The position numbers were made by a program, and so were the translations under genes. A stretch of DNA of 63,717 nt from Nitrospirota bacterium (GTDB lineage Bacteria; Nitrospirota; Thermodesulfovibrionia; Thermodesulfovibrionales; Dissulfurispiraceae): the NCBI GenBank assembly GCA_040752355.1, contig JBFMHE010000022.1, positions 1-63,717 of the forward strand, written 5' to 3'. The notes under the pieces are model-generated. The model ran no database searches. It worked only from the letters and a program-made list of their open reading frames with translations, and was not told where the DNA came from. Positions 19,335 to 63,717 of the stretch are shown piece by piece (within the stretch, counting starts at the first letter, position 1; each line of letters begins with the position of its first letter).

Positions 19335-21017
19335 ATGGTTAGGCGGTTCTATAACATGGGGCTGAGGAGAAAGTTGACTCTCATCTTCGGGTCCCTCATC
19401 TTCACCGTCGTAGTGGGCGTAGCCGCAGGACAGTGGTCCTTTCTCACGGTTCAGGTGGGAGGCAAGGAGTATCAAGGGATCGACCTTAAACGAGAAACCA
19501 TTGACGAGATAGCAAGGATATTGATCAATATCAACCTCCTGCGCGGCACTGCCTACGCTCATCTTGAAGACTCCGACACTGGGGTGAAACACGCGATGCT
19601 GCAACGGATTGCGGCTACCGATTCCCTCTTCCAGTCGATCAGCATGAAGGTTGCCCCGCCTGCGAAAGGAGGCGAACGGTATTGCGGCTCCTGTCATTCA
19701 GCAGGAGTAGCCGTCGCCTCCGGTATCAGCGGTGCGCAAAGAGCATGGGATGCTTATAAGCCTCTTTTGAGGGAAACGATCATACCGGGGCTGGGCACGG
19801 ACAGGTCGAGGAGCATGAAGGAGGTGATGGGCACCCGTCTTGAAACGCATCACGAGGAGCTGATGACGAATCTCTCCTCCTCGCTGGATCTCATGCGGGG
19901 AGTATTCCCCCTTGCGGTGAAGAGAATGACAAAGGAGGCTGACGCTATCAGGCTCGGATTTCTCGTCGGCGGCGTGATGACCATAGGCTTTCTCGTAGCC
20001 CTGACACTCTTCCTCTCCTCCCTCATCGTCAGCCCGGTGGTGGCGATTTCGGACAGGGCGACCAAAATGGCTGAAGGCGATTTCACCGCAGGCTCGGAGA
20101 TACCGTGCAAGGGGGAGGACGAAATAGGGAGCATGGCACGTTCCTTTGTACAGATGACCGGTAAGGTAAGGGACTTTGTGGTAACGGCGAAGGAGGGCAT
20201 TCTAACCCTCTCCTCTACTTCGGAGCAGCTTTCGGTCACGACAGGTCACCTCTCTTCCAAGATGGAGGAAGAGCGCAATCAGATGAACCAGATAGCGCGC
20301 TCTATTACCGAGATGTCCCGGAGCATCGTCGAATTGGCAAACAGCTCATCGAGGGTGGCTGAGCTGTCCGACGAATCATCTACCGTGGCTGAGGGAGGAA
20401 AGGACATATCGAAATACACCCTCACCAAAGTCAGCTCCCTCGCCGATATTATCAAAGACACCGCTGCTACCATAGAGGAGCTCGGGGGCAGTTCGCAGGA
20501 AATCGGCGATATCGTATCCGTCATTACGGATATCGCCGACCAGACCAATCTCCTGGCGCTGAACGCGGCGATAGAAGCAGCGCGTGCCGGAGAACAGGGG
20601 AGAGGATTCGCGGTCGTCGCCGACGAAGTCAGGAAGCTGGCTGAAAAGACTTCGCGCGCAACAAAAGAAATAACCGGGAAAGTACAGCTTATACAAGCGG
20701 AGTCGAAAAAGTCGGTGGATACCGTCAGGAAAAGCAAGGCAGAGGTGGAAAGCAGCATAGCTCTCCTCCACGGGGTTGCGCAATCCTTTGGCTCCATATG
20801 CACTGCAGCTAAAGACGTCACCACGGTGGCGCAGCAAATGGCGGCGGCAACGGAAGAGCAATCGGCGACCTCCGAGGACATCGCTGCGCACACCGCCGGC
20901 GTATCGCAGTCAATAAATCAGACGTACGGCGGGATAGAACAGATGAGGAAGATATCGACGGAGCTTGCGCACATGACAGAAAGCCTCAGGGCCCAGACGA
21001 GCAAGTTCAGGACGTGA
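19335..21017 (+). CDS. Methyl-accepting chemotaxis protein with periplasmic haem-c site
   Basis: 560 residues. Membrane helix 1 at about 14-33, periplasmic domain to about 208, helix 2 at about 209-235 ([20 protein letters not shown]), HAMP, then the signalling hairpin with the highly conserved tip [20 protein letters not shown]. In the periplasmic domain residues 117-121 are CGSCH, a c-type haem attachment motif, in a helical rather than PAS-like context. Geobacter has haem-c chemoreceptors, so this may sense redox or a gas. AGGGGAGGGG precedes the ATG. It is far from the chemosensory operon at 27 kb. Confidence 0.9.
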
Positions 21018-23865: not shown

Positions 23866-26235
23866 TTACCGCGAGGTCACGCCCTCTCCACGAACGGCGA
23901 TCGTAAGCGCCGGCGTATCGGGGTCATTGGAATAAACGGTGACCGTGGCCGTCTTCCTGCCCGTCGTGGCAGGTTTGAACCTCACCTTGAGGTCGTAATC
24001 GGAACCCGGCTGCACCGTAAAGGTGGAGCTGCTCCCCAGGCTGAAAAGGGAGGCGTTCGTGCCGGAGATCGCGACCCTGGTCACTGTAAGCGGGGCGGTC
24101 CCGGTGTTCTTCACCTCTATCTTCTTCTCTTTCGTGGTGTTCAGCGCCACCGTGCCGTAATCAACCGCAGTCGACTTGACCGCAATGTTCTGGCCGCTCT
24201 GCGTGCTCGCCGTATCGAACGAAGCGGTCACGGTCGCGTTGGCGCTCACGGTAAAGATGCAGTCGCCCGTTCCCGAGCACCCTCCGCCGCTCCAGCCTTT
24301 GAAGGTCGAGCCCGCCGCAGCAGCAGCCTTGAGGGTAACGATGGTCCCCTGGGCATACGCCTGTCCGCAGTCCGTGCCGCAGGAGATGCCGGAGGGACTG
24401 CTCGTCACCGTACCGCTTCCCGTCCCGTTCTTCGAGACGGAGACGGTGTAATTGGTTGTGGTCGGCGGAGGCGTGGTCGTGCTGCCGCTTCTGGTGAAGC
24501 TATGGCACTTCGAGCAGTCATACTTCTTGTCGGTAACATGCTTCTTGTGCAGCGAGGTGAAGCTCGTCCTCGCAGGGTCCTTGTACGAGTGGCACTGCGA
24601 GCAGACCGATGAAGCAGCGCCCTTCAGCACATACCCCATCTGCTTCAGGTTCATCTGGGTAGCAGTAGAGCCGTGGCAGTTGCTGCAGGTCAGGGCCTGC
24701 TCCTTGGGCATCACCTCATGGGTAATAAGCTGGAAGGTGTCATCCTCTACCCATGTGTAGGGCTCGGCACTGCTGTGTCCCATATTCACCAGTCCCTGCT
24801 TCACTGCTGCGTCCGCATTGCCGGTCGAGAAGTACACTTTTGTATCCAGCGCGATCAGCTTTGCGATGCCCGGTGCATAGGGCCTGATGGAATATTTGTA
24901 TTTAAACGGGTAGAGCTTGCTGGCGGCGTCATTGATGCCGCCCATGGGCCTCGCGGTCGGGTACCTTCCCGTAGCAGGGTCGATCGAGGCGACTTCGTTG
25001 AGGCTGTAGCCCCAGCTCGTCCCGTTCCAGAACCGATACTCGGGTTTGATAGTGTTGGCGCGGTGGATCGTAGGCTCCCACCGATTGAGCGCAGTGCTCC
25101 ACTCGGGCGTCTTCCAGTCCCTGACCGTCTCTGTCGACTCATTCGTCGCTGTATCGGCCGCATCCCGCGCATACGTCCTGATATGGCAGGTCTGGCAGGC
25201 CACCTTTTTCACATGCTTGTTCACGTCAGCCGTCACATGCCCCGTCGAAGAGAGCTTCGTCGGATGGCAGGTCGCGGTGGAGCAGCTCATCTTCACATCG
25301 AGGTCGGTCTCCCTGAGATCGGCGCCCCTGCCCGCTATCTTGTGCTGCTGGGTAGTGTGGCAGGCCTGGCAGGTAAGATTCGCCCCGGTCGTCGCCATAT
25401 GGACATCGAAGTTCCTGTCAGTGGTATTCGTGTGAGCCAGCGCGATATCGCCGCGCTTGTTGTTGTCCCCGCCGCCCGCCCTCGCATGGCACTGCAGACA
25501 GGTACCGCGGTTGGGCTTGTGCACGGTCTGGACCGCCTGGTCCATGGTAATGGTCATTTTGGCGGTATCCGGGACATATTTGCCGCTCGCCGCATCCTTG
25601 ATTCTCTTGTACTCCTTCTGGTGGCAGATGAGACAATCGATATTCTCGAGCTGCGCCTGGGAAACCGTGGCCGAGGGCAATGCGCCGAGGCCGACATGGC
25701 AGCTGCCGCAGCCGCCGAAATTGCCCAGGATGTTCACACAGTAGCTGTTCAGCGCCGTGTGGAGCTTTCCCTGGATCGGTGCGCCGTTGACCATATACGG
25801 CGCGGCCCCCTGCCACTGGTAGTGGGCGGACGCATGCACCTCGTTCGCCTCTGCCTGGTGGCAGGCCAGGCACATGGCAGATCCCGTATAAGACAGCGAG
25901 GAGTGCGGTGCCGCCCCGCCGCCACCCGTCGAGGCAGGCTTGCTTGCCGGATCGCCCGGGAAGGTCCGGGCATTGATCTCGACGATGGTGGTGAAGCCGT
26001 CGCCGTCGGAGTCGAGCGGCTCGATGGTGCTGTAGACATGGCCGCTGTTTTTGAACGCCGTGCCATACGGGTTGAGCGCCGGCGCTGCCGTGTGGCAGAC
26101 CGAACAGGTGTTCAAAACCGTATTCGATATTCCATAGGTGGTGTTAAAGGTCGTCATATACGACGACTTGGCATGCGCGATGCCGGCCCCTGCAATAACG
26201 AACATGAAAATCAAAAGCCACGTAAGTCTTTTCAT
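23866..26235 (-). CDS. Secreted multihaem c-type cytochrome with C-terminal adhesin-like domains
   Basis: 789 residues from the ATG at 26235 (GGAGG upstream), with a clean signal peptide MKRLTWLLIFMFVIAGAG. I count eleven haem sites: ten CxxCH (for example CSVCH, CLACH, CGSCH, CLICH, CLQCH, CQACH, CQTCH, CSNCH, CSQCH, CSKCH) and one CSTATCH of the CX4CH type. After the last haem come TTPPPTTT linker, an InlB-like repeat (GTVTSSPSGISCGTDCG, FKGWSGGGCSGTGDC) and an ASH/choice-of-anchor-like beta domain (VDYGTVALNTTKEKKIEVKN). Suggests a periplasmic or surface electron carrier. It stands alone, with its own terminator and an untypically long leader. Confidence 0.9.
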   Translation of the reverse strand: MKRLTWLLIFMFVIAGAGIAHAKSSYMTTFNTTYGISNTVLNTCSVCHTAAPALNPYGTAFKNSGHVYSTIEPLDSDGDGFTTIVEINARTFPGDPASKPASTGGGGAAPHSSLSYTGSAMCLACHQAEANEVHASAHYQWQGAAPYMVNGAPIQGKLHTALNSYCVNILGNFGGCGSCHVGLGALPSATVSQAQLENIDCLICHQKEYKRIKDAASGKYVPDTAKMTITMDQAVQTVHKPNRGTCLQCHARAGGGDNNKRGDIALAHTNTTDRNFDVHMATTGANLTCQACHTTQQHKIAGRGADLRETDLDVKMSCSTATCHPTKLSSTGHVTADVNKHVKKVACQTCHIRTYARDAADTATNESTETVRDWKTPEWSTALNRWEPTIHRANTIKPEYRFWNGTSWGYSLNEVASIDPATGRYPTARPMGGINDAASKLYPFKYKYSIRPYAPGIAKLIALDTKVYFSTGNADAAVKQGLVNMGHSSAEPYTWVEDDTFQLITHEVMPKEQALTCSNCHGSTATQMNLKQMGYVLKGAASSVCSQCHSYKDPARTSFTSLHKKHVTDKKYDCSKCHSFTRSGSTTTPPPTTTNYTVSVSKNGTGSGTVTSSPSGISCGTDCGQAYAQGTIVTLKAAAAAGSTFKGWSGGGCSGTGDCIFTVSANATVTASFDTASTQSGQNIAVKSTAVDYGTVALNTTKEKKIEVKNTGTAPLTVTRVAISGTNASLFSLGSSSTFTVQPGSDYDLKVRFKPATTGRKTATVTVYSNDPDTPALTIAVRGEGVTSR

Positions 26236-26597
26236 ACGTTCCTCCGCAATAAGAATTCTGTGTGCTCCCTGTTGAGCAGTCGTTCGATACGAAGCACCTG
26301 CTTCCTCCCGGCCATGCCGGAACAGCCTGCCCGGCACAGCGCTCGTTACCCTTTTCTCCCCCCTTTTTCAGATAGTCGTTCCCGACATGATATCCAGGAG
26401 CTCATGCCCCCTCTGCGATGCACTGAATTTCAGGTCGTGTTTGCAAAGTGGTTCTACTGCGATGGGCTGCAGGCTTCCCGAGCTGCGTTGTCGTGGTAAA
26501 AGAGTCCTCACCGCAGCTCTGCTACGCCTCCCCATCCCGGAAGTCCGGGACTTCCGGGGAGCCCGTATTCCGGGTGATCGGAATCACCAAAAGCGCT
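26236..26597 (-). promoter_or_regulatory. Long structured leader of the cytochrome gene
   Basis: If transcription starts from the sigma-54-like site, the leader is about 360 nt. It holds a perfect 23-nt palindrome (26536-26558, cccggaagtcc around a central g), a ggtgat/atcacc hairpin (26574-26589) and an arm pair GAGCTGCG/CGCAGCTC on the leftward strand around 26480-26520. No known riboswitch core was recognised. No other gene is visible here. Confidence 0.35.
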
Positions 26598-27344: not shown

Positions 27345-27902
27345 GTGAGGATGGAAATCCGCATGGAGCTGCAGAAAAGCAAGAGTGAGCTTATCCTCGA
27401 TGAGCTGAAACGGCGCAAGACAAGAGAAAAGGTCATCGAGGTAGAAGAGGAAACCCTCAAGGCGGTGATTTTCTCTCTCCTGAGCGAGTTATACGCCTTC
27501 AAGGGCCCCGAAGTAAAAGAGATACTGCCGCTCGTGCCGGTATATTATGTCCCCGGCTCGCCCGACTTCATCCCCGGCGTGATCAATGTCAGGGGAGACA
27601 TCGAATCGGTGATCAACATGAACAGGCTCCTCGGGCTCCCGGACTCGGATCCCTCGGTGAGCAACCGCATCGTGATCGCCGACAGCGGCGCCGTACGATC
27701 CGGCATCATCGTGGACTCTGTCGAGGACGTGATCGACATTCCCGCGAGCTCCATCAAGCCTCCGATAGCGACATTACCTGCGGCGATCAAGGACTATATC
27801 GTCGGAGAGCTGATGTACCGGGGAAGAAACGTGACGGTCCTCGATGTCGGAAGACTGTTCGGCAGGCTCGGCTCCCCCGCTCCCGCGGGGAGAGGCGCAT
27901 GA
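27345..27902 (+). CDS. cheW: CheW-like chemosensory coupling protein
   Basis: 185 residues from GTG 27345; ATGs at 27351 and 27363 are alternatives, the last with AGGA upstream. A charged helix of about 45 residues precedes the CheW SH3-like domain: LLSELYAFKGPEVKEILPL, PDFIPGVINVRGDIESVINM and GIIVDSVEDVIDIPASSI. It links the receptor to CheA. It is the first gene of a rightward operon that ends with a diguanylate cyclase. Confidence 0.9.
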   Translation: MRMEIRMELQKSKSELILDELKRRKTREKVIEVEEETLKAVIFSLLSELYAFKGPEVKEILPLVPVYYVPGSPDFIPGVINVRGDIESVINMNRLLGLPDSDPSVSNRIVIADSGAVRSGIIVDSVEDVIDIPASSIKPPIATLPAAIKDYIVGELMYRGRNVTVLDVGRLFGRLGSPAPAGRGA

Positions 27903-27950
27903 GCCGTCCGAACCGGGGGACGCGCGCGGCAAGGAGCGCACGAGGCACAG

Positions 27951-28388
27951 ATGGATAAATTGGAGCTGTTGCTCTTTACGCTGGGCGGGGTCGCCATCGG
28001 AGTGGATACCGAGCAGGTCGCCGGAATCATTACCCTCGAGCAGGCTGAAGAGAGGGGTATGGAGCCGGCGCCGCTCCATCGGATGATGCCGTTCGGCGGA
28101 AGGCCTGTTACCTACCGCGAGCCGAGAGCGCTCCTGACCAAGGGCGACCCGCCGCGCGCCGTAGTGATCGAGGCGCCCGAGGACATCCTCGCGACAGGAA
28201 TCGACGCCGTCCATCCCCTCCCGGAGACGCTCGCGGCGTGCAGCGCCGCCACGGGGATTTGGGGAGCTACCGTGAGAAAGGACGGGATCGTGCTTCTCGT
28301 GGATCTCGACAAGCTGGATAAAGCCCTTACGCGCCGTGGAGGGTCCGGGCAGAACATTCCCACCATACGTCAGGAGGCGGTACTATGA
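27951..28388 (+). CDS. Second CheW-like protein, divergent
   Basis: 145 residues. The CheW fold is suggested by LLLFTLGGVAIGVDTEQVAG at the start and by IDAVHPLPETLAACSAATGIWGA then VLLVDLDKL at the end, but the middle is diverged. It matches the position of WspD/WspB in Wsp-type operons, which also carry two CheW proteins. Its stop overlaps the receptor start by 4 nt (ATGA). Confidence 0.8.
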   Translation: MDKLELLLFTLGGVAIGVDTEQVAGIITLEQAEERGMEPAPLHRMMPFGGRPVTYREPRALLTKGDPPRAVVIEAPEDILATGIDAVHPLPETLAACSAATGIWGATVRKDGIVLLVDLDKLDKALTRRGGSGQNIPTIRQEAVL

Positions 28389-30091
28389 AGGCACCTTTAA
28401 GGAATTGGTTGAAACTCGACACATCGCTGAGGCGGTTATGGCTGTTCTTCATGATCCTGCCGCTGTCCATCGTATACCTCCTTCTGGGAGCGCTCTCCAT
28501 CTCGGGAATCTACCTCGATAGCGAAAAGCGCGTGCAGAATTACCGCCACATGCTCCTCGCCGAGCGGAAAGAGCGGGTCAGGAGCATCACCACTCTCGTC
28601 GCGCGGTCTATAGAGCGCCTGCCGCACCAGCAGGCCATCGAGACCGTGAGCAAGCTGAAGCAGGGCGCAAACGACTCGTTCTGGATATACGACGGCGCCA
28701 ACACCATCGTGTATCACACGGATCACCGCCTGATGCGAATGAATATCAGAGACCTGAGCGATGCCGCCGGCATCGATTACCTCCGGGAGATCCCGAAGAT
28801 CACCGGAAGCAACGGTGAAGGATTTCTCGTCTCCGCCGCCAGAGAGGCGGACGGCAGCACGCACCCCAAAGTCGTCTATGCGAAGGCACTCGGGAAGTGG
28901 AAGTGGGTGGCGGTCGCCGATGCGGGGGTAGGCGATATTGAACAGGCAGTCGCCAAAGAACGCGCACAGATATATAAGGACATAGCATCCCTCATCGCCA
29001 GAACCGTTGTCATCTCCTTGATAGCCGTCGCGATCATCTTCCGGGTCATGAGGCGTTATGCGGACCGCTTCCTGACCGAGCCGGTGAACACCTTCGTCAC
29101 GACGCTCAGAAGCGCGCAGAACGACCTTACGGTCAGGATCCCGGTAAAAGAGAAGAACGAGTTCGGCGAGATCGCCAACCTGTTCAACTCGTATATGGAG
29201 AACCTGCTCTCCGCCATGAAAAAGGTCTCGAACTCCGCCCTCGACATCAATTCACACGCAAACGAGATCTCCGGGGCGGTGCAGCAGCAGGCCGCCGTAC
29301 TGACCCAGCAGTCCGCCGCGGTAACCGAGATCACCTCCACGATGGAAGAGCTCTCGGCCTCCTCGTCGCAGATCGCCGAGCACTCGAAGTCCGTGGTCGA
29401 GATTGCCAACAAGACCTGCGACGATCTCAAGACCGGCGCAAAGTCCGTTGAAGCGGTCATCACGAAGATGACCGAAATCAGCGACGATAATGAAAAGAGC
29501 ATCCAGGAGATCCACGATCTCGGAAAGAAGTCGAAGGAAATCACCAAGATCATGGAGATCATCAATACCATTGCGGACCAGACAAAGCTCATCGCCTTCA
29601 ATGCCGCGCTGGAGGCCTCCAGCGCAGGAGAGGCAGGCAAACGGTTCGCCGTCGTCGCCGTGGAGATACGGAGGCTCGCCGACAGCGTTATGGAGTCCAC
29701 AGGGGAGATCGAGTCCAAGATCAGCGAGATACAGGAGGCGATCAACCGGCTCATCATCACTTCGGAAAAAGGCACCAAGGGGATCAGGGGCGGCATCGAG
29801 TATTCAAGCCACACGACGGAGCTCCTTTTAGAAATTGTCGAGGCCGCCAACCAGACGACCGATGCAGCGAAACAGATATCCCTCTCGACCCAGCAGCAGA
29901 AGACCGCCAGCAGCCAGGTCCTCGGCGCCCTCCGGGAAATCGTGACAGGGTCAAACCAGAGTACCGACTCCGTCAACCAGATCAGCTTCATTACAAAAGA
30001 GATGGCGGTCCTGTCCAATAACCTGAAGGAAGCGGTCGAGAAGTTCAAGCTTCAGCAACACCGGGAACCCGGTAATCACGGAAGGGAGTGA
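28385..30091 (+). CDS. Methyl-accepting chemotaxis protein (single-Cache receptor)
   Basis: 568 residues. Membrane helix 1 at about 20-42, a Cache-type sensor (DSFWIYDGANTIVYHTDHRL, then GKWKWVAVADAGVGDIEQAV), helix 2 at about 200-218, HAMP, and the signalling tip DQTKLIAFNAALEASSAGEAG near 410. The tip differs from the consensus (KLIAFN for NLLALN), which is typical of receptors in alternative-function systems. It is embedded in the chemosensory operon and is probably its dedicated input. Confidence 0.92.
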   Translation: MKAPLRNWLKLDTSLRRLWLFFMILPLSIVYLLLGALSISGIYLDSEKRVQNYRHMLLAERKERVRSITTLVARSIERLPHQQAIETVSKLKQGANDSFWIYDGANTIVYHTDHRLMRMNIRDLSDAAGIDYLREIPKITGSNGEGFLVSAAREADGSTHPKVVYAKALGKWKWVAVADAGVGDIEQAVAKERAQIYKDIASLIARTVVISLIAVAIIFRVMRRYADRFLTEPVNTFVTTLRSAQNDLTVRIPVKEKNEFGEIANLFNSYMENLLSAMKKVSNSALDINSHANEISGAVQQQAAVLTQQSAAVTEITSTMEELSASSSQIAEHSKSVVEIANKTCDDLKTGAKSVEAVITKMTEISDDNEKSIQEIHDLGKKSKEITKIMEIINTIADQTKLIAFNAALEASSAGEAGKRFAVVAVEIRRLADSVMESTGEIESKISEIQEAINRLIITSEKGTKGIRGGIEYSSHTTELLLEIVEAANQTTDAAKQISLSTQQQKTASSQVLGALREIVTGSNQSTDSVNQISFITKEMAVLSNNLKEAVEKFKLQQHREPGNHGRE

Positions 30092-30102
30092 AAGAAATTC
30101 GC

Positions 30103-31122
30103 ATGGAACCTATTCGGGTACTCATAGCCGACGACAGCGCCCTTGCCAGAGAGCTGATCATCTCGATCCTCTCCATGGATAAGCAGCTCCGGGTCGTCGG
30201 AGAGGCGCGGGACGGCAAGGAGGCTGTCGAGAAGACGCGCGACCTGAAGCCTGATATCATAACCATGGACATCGAGATGCCGGTCATGACCGGGATCGAG
30301 GCCATCGAGCATATCATGGCGGAGAACGCAGTCCCCATCCTCGTCGTAACGTCCCGCAGCGACGCCCATACGGCGTACACCGCGGTCTCGAAAGGAGCGC
30401 TGGACCTCGTCCCCAAGCCTGAGGTAAGCCTCGATTGCGCCCACGAGTTCACCCGCAAGGTGAAGCTCGTCTCACAGATCAAGGTGATCACCCATATGAG
30501 GAGGCATATCCTCCGGGAGCATGCCGTCGCGCCGGTCAGTCCGCAGGCGGTGCCTGCGCACTCCAACAAGATTATCGCCATCGCGTCCTCGACAGGAGGC
30601 CCGCACGCGCTTTCGGGCATCCTGTCCCGTCTTCCGGAGACGTTTCCCTGTCCCGTCGTCATAGCACAGCATATCCCCGACGGGTTCGTCAAAGGCCTTG
30701 CAGACTGGCTCGGCAAGAGCCTGAAGCTGCGCCTGAAGGTGGCGGAGCAGGGGGAGCCGCTGTCCCCCGGGCGCATCTATCTCGCTCCTTCGGAGAGCCA
30801 CATGGAGGTTGCCGGCGGCAGGATATCCTTTGTCGAGCGCCGTCCGGACGACATCTACCATCCTTCATGTGACATTCTTCTGTCCTCCGTGGCGCGTGAG
30901 TACGGCGGCAGAGGCATCGGCATCATATTGACCGGCATGGGAAGCGACGGGGCGATGGGGATGAAGAAGATAAAAGAGGCCGGGGGAGTAACCATCGCCC
31001 AGGATGAAGAGACCTCGGTGGTGTTCGGCATGAACAAGGTCGCTATCGACAGCGGCGGCGCCGACAGGGTGCTCGCCCTCGAGCGCATAGGGCCCGAGCT
31101 GATCAGGCTCGCCAGCGCCTGA
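30103..31122 (+). CDS. cheB: Chemotaxis response regulator protein-glutamate methylesterase
   Basis: 339 residues from ATG 30103; a GTG at 30088 overlapping the receptor stop is also open. Receiver domain: VLIADDSALAR and phospho-Asp in TMDIEMPVMTG. Methylesterase domain: catalytic Ser in IASSTGGP, His in AQHIPDGF and Asp in TGMGSDGAMG. It removes methyl groups from the receptor to reset signalling. Confidence 0.95.
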   Translation: MEPIRVLIADDSALARELIISILSMDKQLRVVGEARDGKEAVEKTRDLKPDIITMDIEMPVMTGIEAIEHIMAENAVPILVVTSRSDAHTAYTAVSKGALDLVPKPEVSLDCAHEFTRKVKLVSQIKVITHMRRHILREHAVAPVSPQAVPAHSNKIIAIASSTGGPHALSGILSRLPETFPCPVVIAQHIPDGFVKGLADWLGKSLKLRLKVAEQGEPLSPGRIYLAPSESHMEVAGGRISFVERRPDDIYHPSCDILLSSVAREYGGRGIGIILTGMGSDGAMGMKKIKEAGGVTIAQDEETSVVFGMNKVAIDSGGADRVLALERIGPELIRLASA

Positions 31123-31191
31123 GGCGATGCCGGGGATCATCGCCGGGCAGGAGCCCCGGCTGTATAACGGAGAGCGAGGGACTGGCTGCAC

Positions 31192-32682
31192 ATGGATTTT
31201 TCGGACTTTAAAAGCGTCATAAAGAACCGCTGCGGGCTCACGTTTGACGGCGCGAGGGCGGCTACGCTGGAGAGCGCGGTCCTGGCGAGGATGTCGGCAC
31301 GGGGCTTGACCTCTCCCGCGGACTATCTCGATTGCCTCTCGTTCGACGAGGACGAGTTCAGCAGTCTCGTCGAGCGGGTCACCGTAAACGAGACCTATTT
31401 CTACAGGGAGCCGGAACATCTCCGGCTGCTCACCACGCGGCTTGTCCCCGGCCTGCTCGCATCAAGGACGCCGGGGGAGAGGATCAGGATACTGAGCGCC
31501 GGATGCTCAACCGGTGAGGAGCCGTACTCGATCGTTATAGAGCTCATGGAAGCATACGGCGGAAGCACGAAAAAGCTCTTCTCCGTGACCGGGGCCGATA
31601 TCGACAGCGGCACCATAAGAACGGCGAAGCTCGCGTGCTACAACAGCCACTCGTTCAGGCAGTTTCCCGAGGGCCTCAAACGCAAATATTTCGACCCGGC
31701 GGGTCCGGGCCTCTTCAGACTGAAGAGCGCGGTGTGCGGTCAGGTCGAGTTCCTGCTGCTGAACCTCCTGAGCCCGGCATATCCGGATTCGCTGAAAAAT
31801 CTCGATGTGATCTTCTACCGCAACGTCTCCATATACTTCGAACCGAAGGTCCAGAAGGAGATCTTTTCGAAGCTGGCTGATCTGCTGAATGACAACGGGT
31901 ACCTCATCGTCAGCTCGACAGAGACCTTGTCCCACAATATAGGGGTCATGTCCCTGATCGAGATTGACAGCCTCTTTCTCTACCAGAAGCGGGTTTATGT
32001 GGATATCGGCGATCGGCGGAAGGGACCGGACCGCAGGCCGGGATCAGGCGCCGAAGCGACCGCGAGCCTCTCCGCCGCGCCGGCGATGCGCTCTCAAACG
32101 GGATACCGGCCCGGACCGCCTGCCGCAAGACCTTCTGAAGCAGCGCTGGCTCCCGAGAGGAGGGACCCCCGGCTCCTCTTTGATGAGGCCCTGGCGCTCG
32201 CCAGGGCGAAAAGCTACCGCGACGCCGTGAACTGCATCGATACCCTCATTGCGCAGGAGCCGTCGTTCATCAAGGCGTACGCGTTGAAGGCGAGCGTGCT
32301 GATCAACCTCAAAGAGCTCGACACGGCCGAGGAGATATGCCTGACCTGCATCGCGCTGGACCAGTGGTGCCTCGAAGCATTCCTCCTCCTGGGAATGATC
32401 GCCAAGATTCGCGGCAGCGAGGAAGAGGCCCTGAAACGGTTCAAAGAGGCACTGTACATCCAGTCCTCGTGCTGGCTCGCCCATTTTTATATCGCCGACA
32501 TCTATCGCCAGCAGGGGGAAACAGAGCGGGCATATCGCGAATACGAGATCGTTGTCAGGCTGCTGGGCAAGGGCGCTATCGAAGACCACGGCCTCACGTT
32601 CTTTCCACTCTCGTTTCCGGTAGGGCAGATTATGCACTCCTGCAAACACAACCTTGCGGAACTGCGGAAAAGGCTGAGATGA
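31192..32682 (+). CDS. cheR: CheR methyltransferase with TPR tail (WspC-like)
   Basis: 496 residues. The CheR domain (1-270) has NETYFYREPEHL, the SAM-binding ILSAGCSTGEEPYSI and DVIFYRNVSIYF. A Pro/Ala/Arg-rich linker (about 275-325) leads to TPR repeats (DEALALARAKSYRDAVNCID, then CLEAFLLLGMIAKIRGSEEE). The CheR-TPR fusion is the WspC architecture. It methylates receptor glutamates. Confidence 0.93.
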   Translation: MDFSDFKSVIKNRCGLTFDGARAATLESAVLARMSARGLTSPADYLDCLSFDEDEFSSLVERVTVNETYFYREPEHLRLLTTRLVPGLLASRTPGERIRILSAGCSTGEEPYSIVIELMEAYGGSTKKLFSVTGADIDSGTIRTAKLACYNSHSFRQFPEGLKRKYFDPAGPGLFRLKSAVCGQVEFLLLNLLSPAYPDSLKNLDVIFYRNVSIYFEPKVQKEIFSKLADLLNDNGYLIVSSTETLSHNIGVMSLIEIDSLFLYQKRVYVDIGDRRKGPDRRPGSGAEATASLSAAPAMRSQTGYRPGPPAARPSEAALAPERRDPRLLFDEALALARAKSYRDAVNCIDTLIAQEPSFIKAYALKASVLINLKELDTAEEICLTCIALDQWCLEAFLLLGMIAKIRGSEEEALKRFKEALYIQSSCWLAHFYIADIYRQQGETERAYREYEIVVRLLGKGAIEDHGLTFFPLSFPVGQIMHSCKHNLAELRKRLR

Positions 32683-32694
32683 GGGGGCGCGTCC

Positions 32695-34941
32695 ATGGCA
32701 TTTGACATGAAGAGGTTCATCGCCCGCTTCGTCGATGAGGCCCGCGAGCATATCGGCAGGCTTAACGACGGGCTGATAGCGCTCGAAAGGAGCCCGGACG
32801 ATGCGGAGGTGCTCAACGCGATATTCCGTTCCGCGCACACGATAAAGGGCTCATCCAGGATGCTGAAGCTTGCAGCCATTACCGACACGGCCCACAAGCT
32901 CGAGGATGCGCTCGGCGCGCTGAGGGACAAGAGGATCGCCCACTCCAGAGAGCTCGCCGACCTGCTCTTCATGGGAGTAGACGCCATTGCGGACATGGTG
33001 GAAAAGATATCCGCCGGACAGGAGATCGCTGCCGAGAGCAGCGGCCTCTGCGAGGCGCTCGCAAGGGTGGCCGAGGGCGGCAGCGCAGCAGCCGGAGAAG
33101 GGCAGCCATCCCCTCCCGCTCCCGGAGCAGCGCCGGGAGCCGAGGCAGAGGAGACCCGTGGCGCGGCCGCCGTCATGCCGGGCAGTGCCGGGCAACCGCC
33201 TGCTCCGGGAGAAGCGCGCGCCAGGACCTCCGAAACGGTCCGCATCAACGCCGAAAAGCTGGACGACCTCATAAAGCTCATGGGCGAGATGGTCTCGAAC
33301 CAGAACAGGCTGAAGCAGCGCATGCAGGACATCAGGGAGGCCGAGCGGAGCGCCAAGTCGCACCTGGAGCTCATCAGGAAGCTGAGATACCTGGACAGCA
33401 GTGCCGTCCCCGATACGGTCGCGGATTCAGCGCAGGCCCTCCACATGCAGATACGGCAGCTCGCCGTCACGATGAGGGACGACAACAACGTCCAGAATCT
33501 CCTTATCGGAGAGCTCCAGGAAAGAGCACTGATCATGCGCATGGTCCCCCTTTCGATGGTGTTCGACTCGTTCCAGCGCATGGTCCGCGATATCGCGCGC
33601 TCGCTGGCAAAGGAAGCGGACCTGGTGATAGAGGGGGGAGACATCGAGCTCGACAAGAAGATGATGGAGAAGATCGGGGACCCTCTCGTGCATATGCTCC
33701 GCAATGCCGTTGACCACGGGATAGAGAGGCCGGAGGACCGGGTCAGGACGGGAAAGCCGGCGCGTGGTGTTGTAAAGGTCTCGGCCTGCTACGATGCAGG
33801 CAGCGTGATCATCGAGATCGGCGACGACGGAAGCGGCATTCCCCTCGACAAGATAAAGGAAAAAGCGCTCAAGAAGAAGCTGTTCACCGATGAGGAGCTG
33901 AACGCCATGGATGAGGCGTCGCTTATAGACCTGGTTTTTCAGCCGGGGTTCAGCACGAGCTCGATCGTCACCGATGTCTCGGGTCGCGGGGTCGGCATGG
34001 ATGTGGTCAAGAGGAATATCGTCGAGGACCTCAAGGGCTCCATAGCCGTCAGGACATCGGCCGGCGCCGGTACGACCTTCTCGATCAGGCTCCCGCTCAG
34101 TCTTGCGATCATGCCCATACTCCTGGTGACGGCAGCGGGAACGACCGTCGCCGTGGCGACCCACTATGTCAGGGAAATCATCCGCATCCCGCGGGAGGAG
34201 TTCATGAGCATAGTGGACAGGACCGCCGTCAGACTTCGCAACGAGTTCATCCCCGTAGCAGACCTGGCCTCGCTGCTCAGGCTTCCAACGCAGGCAGACG
34301 CCCCGCCTCCTGCTGCGGGAAAGGAGCCGCTCATTATCGTCATCCAGGCCGGCTCCGAGCACCTGGGGCTCCTCGTCGACGCGCTCATCGACGAGGAGGA
34401 CATGGTGATCAAATCGCTGCCCTCCCACATGAGAACCACCAAGCTGGTCTCCGGCGTCACCATCTCGGGAAGGAACGACATCATCAATATCCTGCATATA
34501 CCCGCGATCTTCGCCGCCGCAAAAGAGGCGCGGGGGCCGAAGAGCGGCGCGGTGCAGGACAGCGCCGGGCAGCGCGAGGTTACCATCCTGGTGGTCGACG
34601 ACTCGGTCAATACGCGCGAGATCGAACGGAGCATCCTCGAGTCTTACGGGTACCGGGTCACCCTGGCCGAGGACGGGCTGGACGCCCTCGAGAAGGCAAA
34701 GGGACACCCCTTCGATGCGGTCATCACCGATGTCGAGATGCCGCGGCTCGACGGTTTTTCGCTGACGGAGCTCCTGAGAAAGGAAGAGGCGTACCGGCAC
34801 ACCCCTATTGTCATCGTTACGTCGCTGGAAAAGGAGGAGGACAAGAAGAGAGGGGTGCGGGTGGGGGCTGATGCCTACATCGTCAAGGGCTCTTTCGACC
34901 AGACGAACCTGCTCGAAACCGTTCAAAATCTGCTCGGATAA
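32695..34941 (+). CDS. cheA: Hybrid CheA histidine kinase with C-terminal receiver (WspE-like)
   Basis: 748 residues. Hpt domain with phospho-His 48 in SAHTIKGSSRML; a Pro/Ala/Gly-rich linker (about 120-180) where a P2 domain would sit; dimerisation; ATPase with MLRNAVDHGIERPEDR, GDDGSGIPLDKI and VSGRGVGMDVVKRN; CheW-like domain (about 465-600); then a receiver (VVDDSVNTRE, phospho-Asp in ITDVEMPRLDG) near 630-748. The hybrid layout is that of WspE and FrzE. Confidence 0.94.
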   Translation: MAFDMKRFIARFVDEAREHIGRLNDGLIALERSPDDAEVLNAIFRSAHTIKGSSRMLKLAAITDTAHKLEDALGALRDKRIAHSRELADLLFMGVDAIADMVEKISAGQEIAAESSGLCEALARVAEGGSAAAGEGQPSPPAPGAAPGAEAEETRGAAAVMPGSAGQPPAPGEARARTSETVRINAEKLDDLIKLMGEMVSNQNRLKQRMQDIREAERSAKSHLELIRKLRYLDSSAVPDTVADSAQALHMQIRQLAVTMRDDNNVQNLLIGELQERALIMRMVPLSMVFDSFQRMVRDIARSLAKEADLVIEGGDIELDKKMMEKIGDPLVHMLRNAVDHGIERPEDRVRTGKPARGVVKVSACYDAGSVIIEIGDDGSGIPLDKIKEKALKKKLFTDEELNAMDEASLIDLVFQPGFSTSSIVTDVSGRGVGMDVVKRNIVEDLKGSIAVRTSAGAGTTFSIRLPLSLAIMPILLVTAAGTTVAVATHYVREIIRIPREEFMSIVDRTAVRLRNEFIPVADLASLLRLPTQADAPPPAAGKEPLIIVIQAGSEHLGLLVDALIDEEDMVIKSLPSHMRTTKLVSGVTISGRNDIINILHIPAIFAAAKEARGPKSGAVQDSAGQREVTILVVDDSVNTREIERSILESYGYRVTLAEDGLDALEKAKGHPFDAVITDVEMPRLDGFSLTELLRKEEAYRHTPIVIVTSLEKEEDKKRGVRVGADAYIVKGSFDQTNLLETVQNLLG

Positions 34942-34953
34942 AGGAGGAATGAG

Positions 34954-35334
34954 ATGCGGCCCGATGCAATAAGAATTCTTATGGCGGATGACGATCCCTT
35001 CGTAAGGGATATGGTAGGGTTTATTCTCGAGTCGAGCGACTACACGGTCGAGACGGCGGAGAACGGCCGTGAGGCGCTGGAAAAGTACAAGGCAGGGTCC
35101 GGCTTCCATGTCATCATATCGGACATGAACATGCCGGAGATGGACGGTCGTGCGCTGATACGGGAGGTCAGGAGTATCGATCCGGACATCCCTATTATCC
35201 TCCTGACCGGCACCGATGATGCCGCCTCTGCAAAGAGCGGCGCGGATGAGTGCATCGTCAAGGATGAAAACATCCAGGATGCCATCACCGCTTCGGTCGA
35301 TGCGGTCCTCAGGAGAAAGGGGCTGGTGAGCTGA
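34954..35334 (+). CDS. Single-domain response regulator
   Basis: 126 residues, AGGAGG 7 nt before the ATG. REC only: MADDDPFVRD acidic pair, phospho-Asp in ISDMNMPEMDG, Thr in LLTGTDD and Lys in IVKDEN. Unlike CheY in flagellar systems there are no flagellar genes nearby, so it may act as a phosphate sink or intermediate in the relay from CheA. Confidence 0.9.
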   Translation: MRPDAIRILMADDDPFVRDMVGFILESSDYTVETAENGREALEKYKAGSGFHVIISDMNMPEMDGRALIREVRSIDPDIPIILLTGTDDAASAKSGADECIVKDENIQDAITASVDAVLRRKGLVS

Positions 35335-35337
35335 CCC

Positions 35338-37002
35338 ATGGCGGAGCCGAGGCGCGACATAAAAGAAAAAATGAAGCTCCTCCGGGAAAGCTACCTCAGG
35401 CAGCTGCCCGAGAGAATCGAAGAGATGGACGCCTGCTGCGGGGGACTGAAGAAAGACCCCGGAGACAGGGAAATAGCGAAAAACCTGCACCGCCTGGCGC
35501 ATAGTATCAAAGGGTCGAGCGCCTCGTTCGGCTTCGGGGAAGTAAGCGCCGCAGCCCTGTCCCTGGACAAGCTCCTGAAGCCGTTTGTCGAGACCGGGAC
35601 ACAGCTTGCCGAGGGGCTCCTCCCCGACATCCTCGGCATCATTGATCGGCTGAAGAGCGCAGTCGAGCTCATGAACCAGAGACATCTGGAAGAGGCCGCT
35701 GCCATCGTCTCGGACCAGATACGCCAGGAGATCGCCGAGCGGGCGGAGAGGCGACTGGTATTCATAGCAGAGGGCGACCCCTCGCTGCTCAAAGAGCTCT
35801 CGGAGCAGATACACCAGTTCGGCTACGATGTCGCGGTGTTCAGCCGGTTCGACGAGCTCAGCGATGCGATAGGGGAAAAGAGCCCTTCCGCCGTGGTGCT
35901 CGACTTCGAGCTGCCCGAGGGGGTCCGGTCGGAGCCTGCAACGGTCATCACTATACGGAACAGGCTGGGCAACGGGATTCCCGCCATATTCATTTCGGAA
36001 CGAGACGACATTACTGCCAGGCTTCAGGCCGTAAAAGCGGGCTCCGACGCCTATTTCGTAAAACCGGTGAATATCACCGACCTGATGGACAAACTCGATT
36101 CGCTCACCACGAGCAGGGTGTCCGAGCCGTATAAAATCCTGATCGTCGATGACGAGCCTGAGCTCGCCGCCTATCACGCGCTTATCCTCCAGGAAGCGGG
36201 CATGGCCACCGAAATCGTCAACGAGCCCCTGCAGGTGTTCGAACGGCTCTTCGAGTTCGGGCCGGATCTGATCCTTATGGATATGTATATGCCTGAATGC
36301 GACGGGATGGAGCTCGCCAAGACCATCCGGCAGATGGGGGCGTACTTCAGTATCCCCATTGTATTCCTTTCGGGTGAAACCAATATCGATAAGCAGCTGT
36401 CAGCCATGCGGATGGGGGGAGACGAGTTCCTGACAAAACCGATAAAGCCGGACCATCTCATCTCCTCCGTTGCCATAAGGGCCGAGCGTATGAGGACCAT
36501 ACGATCATTCATGGAGAGGGACAGCCTGACCGGGCTGCTGAACCACACGAGGACAAAGCTCCAGCTCGATATCGCCGTAACCCGTGCGCGGAGGCTGGGC
36601 GCGCACATGGCGTTCGCCATGATCGACATAGACCGGTTCAAGACGGTCAACGATACGTACGGCCACCCGACGGGCGACAGGGTCATCACCGGTCTGTCGC
36701 GGCTCTTGCAGCAGCGGCTCCGGAAGACCGACATCATCGGACGGTACGGGGGCGAGGAGTTCGCCGTCGTGCTCAACGAGACCAACGCCCATTACGCAAA
36801 GAAGATGCTCGACGAGCTTCGCACCATCTTCTCACAGATCAAGTTCAGGCACCAGGACAAGGAGTTTTCCGTAACCTTCAGCGCCGGTGTGGCGGTCTAC
36901 CCGGAATTCGAAGACGCCGAAACCATCGGCGACGCTGCCGACAAAGCGCTGTATGAAGCCAAGCGCAGCGGGAGGAACAGGGTTATCATAGCACCGGGGT
37001 GA
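35338..37002 (+). CDS. Diguanylate cyclase with Hpt and two receiver domains
   Basis: 554 residues: Hpt (His 55 in LAHSIKGSSASF), REC1 (about 138-255; phospho-Asp region VVLDFELPEG), REC2 (about 262-380; VDDEPEL, LILMDMYMPECDG) and GGDEF (about 395-554) with DSLTGLLN, DIDRFKTVNDTYGH and the intact active site RYGGEEF. RKTD five residues before it is the inhibitory c-di-GMP site. It makes c-di-GMP from GTP. WspR has only one REC; an N-terminal Hpt is unusual and could receive phosphate from the CheA receiver. Starts 3 nt after the previous gene. Confidence 0.93.
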   Translation: MAEPRRDIKEKMKLLRESYLRQLPERIEEMDACCGGLKKDPGDREIAKNLHRLAHSIKGSSASFGFGEVSAAALSLDKLLKPFVETGTQLAEGLLPDILGIIDRLKSAVELMNQRHLEEAAAIVSDQIRQEIAERAERRLVFIAEGDPSLLKELSEQIHQFGYDVAVFSRFDELSDAIGEKSPSAVVLDFELPEGVRSEPATVITIRNRLGNGIPAIFISERDDITARLQAVKAGSDAYFVKPVNITDLMDKLDSLTTSRVSEPYKILIVDDEPELAAYHALILQEAGMATEIVNEPLQVFERLFEFGPDLILMDMYMPECDGMELAKTIRQMGAYFSIPIVFLSGETNIDKQLSAMRMGGDEFLTKPIKPDHLISSVAIRAERMRTIRSFMERDSLTGLLNHTRTKLQLDIAVTRARRLGAHMAFAMIDIDRFKTVNDTYGHPTGDRVITGLSRLLQQRLRKTDIIGRYGGEEFAVVLNETNAHYAKKMLDELRTIFSQIKFRHQDKEFSVTFSAGVAVYPEFEDAETIGDAADKALYEAKRSGRNRVIIAPG

Positions 37003-63421: not shown

Positions 63422-63429
63422 CTCGAAAA

Positions 63430-63545
<116 letters not shown>

Positions 63546-63629
63546 AACTTTAATATACTATATCGGAATTAAAAAAGCAAGAAAAAATTAATTGACAATG
63601 TGGGGGGTGGGTGAGGGGAGACAGTAGTG

Positions 63630-63717
63630 GTCAAGGCACACGGTCTATTAGTACTGGTAAGCTGAATCCGTTACCGGACTTACACCTCCAGCCTATCGAC
63701 GTGGTGGTCTACCACGG
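63630..63717 (-). rRNA. rrl: 23S ribosomal RNA, 3' end (runs off window)
   Basis: The leftward strand reads ATAGGCTGGAGGTGTAAG, then AGCTTACCAGTACTAATAGA and CGTGTGCCTTGACCAC, the conserved 3' end of 23S rRNA. The exact 3' terminus is approximate. The gap to the 5S gene holds no tRNA. Confidence 0.9.

Follow-up and report, generated by a model that had tools for sequence, protein, structure and literature searches.

Two chemosensory systems with a GGDEF protein as output are close to the operon described here. In the Wsp system of Pseudomonas (WspA-F, WspR), phosphorylation of WspR by the kinase WspE works without any Hpt domain (PMC8552884). The second system, cluster 2 of Halomonas titanicae KHS3, was described in 2018 and contains a 40H MCP, CheB2, CheR2-TPR, a CheA2-REC without P2, CheY2, a cyclase with an Hpt, two RECs and a GGDEF domain, CheW2 and an atypical CheW3 (PMC5907407). 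The authors listed 83 cyclases of exactly the Hpt-REC-REC-GGDEF architecture, and 16 of the 18 that they inspected lay in identical clusters. Circular permutations of the gene order were counted as cluster 2-like, and many variants were found in Geobacteraceae. A possible phosphorelay was proposed, and in 2018 no enzyme with this domain organisation had yet been characterised (all PMC5907407). In the literature we found no phosphotransfer results for Hpt-REC-REC-GGDEF chemosensory systems, and in a survey of Geobacter chemotaxis (PMC2577667) we found no match to the operon; GGDEF is mentioned there once, in the title of a reference on WspR. In the ACF class of chemosensory systems the output is a multidomain response regulator, usually accompanied by a CheR-TPR (PMC3447774).

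The window, i.e., the whole stretch of 63,717 nucleotides analysed here, contains eight intact ORFs at 27345-37002 according to its ORF list. They run in one direction and are closely spaced, from a 4-base overlap at the tightest to 69 bases at the widest, in the following order:

27345-27902, forward strand: CheW1 (Pfam CheW, 3.1e-27), start possibly at 27363
27951-28388, forward strand: CheW2, atypical (weak Pfam CheW match, 24.4 bits against a cut-off of 23.5, E 2e-5)
28385-30091, forward strand: MCP with sCache_2 sensor, HAMP and signalling hairpin (Pfam; MCPsignal 7e-31)
30088-31122, forward strand: CheB methylesterase, REC and CheB_methylest (Pfam 3.4e-61; residue audit)
31192-32682, forward strand: CheR methyltransferase with C-terminal TPRs (Pfam CheR 1.1e-44 and TPR families)
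32695-34941, forward strand: CheA hybrid kinase with P1, dimerisation, HATPase and CheW-like domains and a C-terminal REC (Pfam; residue audit)
34954-35334, forward strand: lone receiver protein, REC (Pfam 1.7e-23)
35338-37002, forward strand: diguanylate cyclase, Hpt-REC-REC-GGDEF (Pfam; AlphaFold2; PleD and DgcR are the best structural matches)

The Pfam matches of the operon are far beyond chance, and the signalling and catalytic core residues are all in place, except for one acid in the first receiver of the cyclase. For CheW1 the GTG at 27345 is a doubtful start, as an ATG at 27363 has a better-placed GAGG upstream. An Rfam search found no riboswitch near the operon, and promoter and terminator scans of the region gave no call above chance level. 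The operon is real and well-formed, and it is probably functional.

The operon shares with KHS3 cluster 2 a single MCP, CheB, CheR-TPR, a CheA-REC lacking P2, a CheY-like REC, the Hpt-REC-REC-GGDEF cyclase and two CheW proteins, one of them atypical. From the end of HAMP to the hairpin tip the MCP measures 141 residues, which by residue count is about the length of the 40H class. The order in KHS3 is MCP-CheB-CheR-CheA-CheY-DGC-CheW-CheW, and the window has a circular permutation of it with the CheW pair first. The sCache_2 sensor and the missing REC1 acid are features of the window, and the window copy groups with Nitrospira/Nitrospirae MAGs and not with Proteobacteria. Judged by these characters, namely the cyclase architecture inside a che operon, the adjacent CheY-like gene, CheR-TPR, the P2-less CheA-REC and the cyclic order, the operon belongs to the Halomonas titanicae cluster 2 type. 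Its domain content, a multidomain response regulator together with CheR-TPR, places it in the ACF class.

The first-pass annotation of this DNA had noted a Wsp-like gene content (two CheW, MCP, CheB, CheR-TPR and CheA-REC), an output enzyme with an Hpt and two receivers in place of the single receiver of WspR, and a separate REC protein. The ORFs and Pfam bear out the first and the Pfam match at 34954-35334 the last, while Pfam and AlphaFold2 agree on the Hpt and the two receivers. Wsp has the same two CheW, MCP, CheB, CheR-TPR, CheA with a C-terminal REC and GGDEF output, but its WspR lacks an Hpt and has one REC only, the wsp operon has no separate CheY gene and its gene order is different; the window operon, with its CheY-like gene and its two-receiver output, therefore falls outside Wsp. 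The same annotation could match the variant to no described system. This does not hold, as the same genes, domain order and extra CheY are those of KHS3 (PMC5907407). A search for the domain order elsewhere, which it had proposed, finds it in many genomes, in line with the published list of cyclases (PMC5907407). The operon is a further copy of a widespread, described arrangement and is ordinary in kind. The Flm pathway of Comamonas testosteroni, a chemosensory pathway that also affects biofilm, was considered as a characterised homologue and ruled out; it is of the type IV pilus class with lone RECs only, and it has no GGDEF protein and no CheB or CheR (PMC6391922).

The cyclase consists of four domains:

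35380-35655, forward strand: Hpt domain (Pfam Hpt, residues 15-106, 2e-10), with H55 at 35500-35502
35752-36117, forward strand: REC1 (AlphaFold2 model and residue audit), acid pair degenerate (E145, G146)
36136-36471, forward strand: REC2 (Pfam, residues 267-378), with D271, D272, D315, S345 and K367 intact
36517-36981, forward strand: GGDEF domain (Pfam, residues 394-548, 5e-44; residue audit)

The two REC stretches match Pfam at 7e-38. In the GGDEF domain the active site reads GGEEF (471-475), the I-site is R462xxD465, and N438, D439 and D447 are present. With a GG(D/E)EF motif and the substrate residues, the protein qualifies on its residues as a diguanylate cyclase, and the output of c-di-GMP, a biofilm signal, that had been suggested for the operon agrees with this prediction. 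In the AlphaFold2 model, made from a 28-sequence alignment, a domain of four helices at the N-terminus is followed by two REC folds and a GGDEF fold (mean pLDDT 80); the pTM of 0.48 means that the placement of the domains is not reliable. Foldseek ranks PleD at the top (E 1e-27), followed by DgcR and WspR, and VIA-align agrees on the coverage of REC-GGDEF and REC-REC-GGDEF. By sequence, the PDB match to WspR (3bre) covers the GGDEF domain alone, while those to PleD and DgcR cover REC2-GGDEF. Caulobacter PleD shares the REC-REC-GGDEF part with the window cyclase, but it has no Hpt and does not lie in a che operon. Furthermore, the phosphoacceptor of PleD is the first REC, whereas in the window cyclase REC2 is the invariant receiver (see below).

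Upstream of the cyclase, CheA contains the Pfam domains Hpt, H-kinase_dim, HATPase_c and CheW, followed by the C-terminal REC (1.5e-25) with its acceptor residue D679. P1 and the dimerisation domain are joined by a linker rich in Ala, Pro and Gly, in which Pfam finds no P2. P1 carries H48, K51, H67 and E70, and these four residues are kept by every aligned CheA among the relatives whose P1 is covered. The lone REC has all five receiver residues (D12, D13, D57, T85 and K103). In the protein at this position they are kept in 19 of 19 operons, with a single change of T to S, and a REC or REC-containing protein accompanies the Hpt-cyclase in nearly all operons.

We suggest, as the explanation that is on balance best overall, a cluster 2-type array that acts through CheA on REC2 of the cyclase, preferably by a relay over the Hpt. 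The MCP with its periplasmic sCache sensor, the two CheW couplers and CheA would form a membrane array, the gain of which would be set by CheR-TPR and CheB. CheA would autophosphorylate on H48, and by the preferred route the phosphoryl group would pass to D57 of the lone REC, on to H55 of the cyclase Hpt and finally to D315 of REC2. D679 of the CheA-REC could be the carrier in place of D57; otherwise this receiver would act as a sink or brake. Once on D315 of the PleD-like cyclase, the phosphoryl group would favour dimerisation of GGDEF and thereby c-di-GMP synthesis, with feedback at the I-site limiting the enzyme. The relay residues (CheA H48, lone REC D57, cyclase H55 and D315) are all present. 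REC1 is the weakest site of the candidate relay and may be mainly structural or a weak phosphoacceptor. Control of the cyclase by CheA is very probable, and it is probable that REC2 is the activating site; whether the relay passes through the Hpt is evenly balanced. A path from CheA to the cyclase via the lone REC is favoured because a REC is constant beside the Hpt-cyclase, while wsp has neither (PMC5907407). The relay, if true, would couple a chemoreceptor array to c-di-GMP in more steps than Wsp.

The conservation of the cyclase bears on these steps. In REC2, D272, D315 and K367 do not vary in any of the 48 homologues, even in orphans whose Hpt has been lost, so REC2 is probably the core input of the enzyme. 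The GGEEF motif and the RxxD I-site are kept among the 48 homologues with two exceptions, one of which is a protein whose GGDEF domain has been replaced. An intact REC2 in every homologue, even without the Hpt, also fits a direct two-step control as in Wsp, where WspE needs no Hpt to reach WspR (PMC8552884). Here P1 of CheA would phosphorylate REC2, the Hpt and REC1 would be an internal store or sink tuning duration, and the lone REC would be a competing sink, like CheY1 in some chemotaxis systems. We regard this as possible but doubtful: direct control needs neither the full conservation of H55 in operon-linked cyclases nor a REC protein that is constantly present.

No operon-linked cyclase has lost H55, but several orphans have. 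The orphan cyclases of Aquitalea, Vogesella and Oleispira-type bacteria have lost both H55 and the signature residues of REC1, and in three spirochaete cyclases the aspartate of REC1 is gone while H55 remains. In the window, REC1 keeps D189, S220 and K242 and lacks one of its two conserved acids. The former three residues are kept in the operon-linked REC1s, the exception being one Hpt-REC protein that ends in HATPase, not GGDEF. The glycine (G146 in the window) is also present in the closest relatives, L009 and L010 (numbers of the loci), and REC1 may accept phosphate only weakly in this small clade because the glycine is common to all three. A Fisher test of che-operon residence against an intact Hpt and REC1 (21/22 versus 4/21, p 2e-7) was set aside, as its rows are related. 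On the tree the association is not significant, with only 2 supported independent contrasts, and the link between an intact Hpt and operon residence is suggestive only.

The equivalent of H67 of CheA P1 is absent from the cyclase Hpt in every sequence. Because it is never present, the cyclase Hpt would take its phosphate from a receiver and not from the kinase domain of CheA. From the known chemistry of P1, we infer that this Hpt is of the phosphorelay type, exchanging with receivers.

Such a Hpt could also be the input for another kinase, either a hybrid histidine kinase encoded elsewhere in the genome or the kinase in the REC slot of relatives, so that the cyclase would integrate two pathways. 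The content of the lone-REC slot indeed varies. L055 (scanned as L043) and L023 have a REC-HisKA-HATPase kinase there and L057 has a REC-PAS-kinase; the REC-slot proteins of L056, L059, L061 and L062 have the same length, 384-386 residues, and probably belong to this group. Cyclases with an intact H55 are also found outside che operons, which would suit this explanation as well. In the window, however, the slot is a bare REC and no kinase gene adjoins the operon, and we find a second kinase improbable. In L011 the slot is occupied by a REC-SpoIIE phosphatase, and the cyclase of L014, ahead of which the contig is cut, is followed by a REC-EAL protein as a candidate member of the operon. Because the REC slot of several relatives has an output of its own (HisKA-HATPase, SpoIIE), the lone REC may be a branch output and not a relay carrier.

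A second variable feature is an MshEN-T2SSE ATPase gene directly before the cyclase, in L056 (8471-10216), L061 (8483-10228), L062 (7960-9705) and L059 (7802-9553). L058 and L060 have an MshEN-T2SSE-REC protein in the vicinity of an orphan cyclase. The MshEN domain, found in ATPases of pili and secretion systems, is known to bind c-di-GMP. Since it binds c-di-GMP and adjoins the cyclase, a pilus output is plausible for the relatives that bear it, and these ATPases suggest a candidate output in general. The genome of the window has two MshEN domains in all, neither of them on the contig of the operon. We consider it rather likely that the output of the system is a pilus, adhesion or biofilm. 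The MshEN ATPases beside the cyclase of relatives, together with a CheY-like protein that has all five signature residues, could instead mean that motility, by flagella or pili, is what the operon controls by way of the lone REC, with the cyclase as a secondary branch. This is very improbable, as the operon, with its multidomain response regulator, its CheR-TPR and its CheA-REC, matches the ACF class (PMC3447774), and the cyclase is the only obvious catalytic output in the window.

What is new here is modest: the varied content of the REC slot, often a kinase or SpoIIE domain, and the MshEN ATPase neighbour in relatives from the phylum of the window. The preferred relay can be extended to a joint picture of a four-step His-Asp-His-Asp relay, an exchangeable REC branch point and a local MshEN target in the Nitrospirota-like relatives, which is tentative and as a whole unlikely.

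Other variants were seen among the relatives. In L056, genes with RsbW-like HATPase_c_2 and with STAS domains separate the REC-slot gene from that of the ATPase. In L009 (10756-13614) the cyclase frame runs on into PilZ and a third REC, a possible synthase-effector fusion. Two Hpt-REC-REC-GGDEF genes flank the REC gene within one operon in the Geobacter-like loci L012 (9977-13817) and L013 (10379-14384). A cyclase-related Hpt-REC protein in L065 (16819-18879) has a HATPase end replacing GGDEF, with a cyclase in the same operon. Finally, L017 (9528-9956) encodes a 142-residue Hpt-only protein, similar to CheA P1, just upstream of a Hpt-REC-REC-GGDEF gene that has no che operon.

The cyclase search over 84,980 species genomes gave 34 loci, and identical or permuted operons are spread over many phyla. 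By synteny, the Nitrospiraceae/Nitrospirae MAGs L009 and L010 have the same eight-gene order as the window; in L009 the MCP is broken into two frames, for which a sequencing error may be the cause. Synteny also places the operon in Nitrospira (L023), Deltaproteobacteria/Geobacter-like genomes (L011-L013), an Acidovorax-like genome (L015), Azonexus (L016), Solidesulfovibrio (L018), Thiocapsa (L022) and Rhodoferax (L027). Within the phylum of the window, 12 of 198 sampled genomes, its own included, have a strong cyclase match. L009 and L010 are the closest relatives, with 64-69% identity in CheA and 67-69% in the cyclase, which suggests a host within Nitrospirota. The copy in the window is compact and complete, and its lineage is close to Nitrospira/Nitrospirae MAGs. 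The distances of CheA and the cyclase correlate over 17 operons (Mantel r 0.91, p 0.0001). Judged by this correlation, to which shared species history contributes, both genes are apparently co-inherited.

The genome (3.57 Mb, 44 contigs) has only one full-length relative of the operon cyclase. MCP domains above the cut-off lie at 18 places in it, and several other loci encode CheW domains, so that it has other chemosensory systems beside this one. In the window, a second MCP gene (HAMP, MCPsignal) is located at 19335-21017, about 6.3 kb upstream of the operon, with no adjacent che genes. On the minus strand, 23866-26337 encodes a large protein whose translation has many CxxCH motifs and resembles a multihaem cytochrome. 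At the window edge (63429-63717, minus strand) lie a 5S rRNA gene and the terminal part of one for 23S rRNA.
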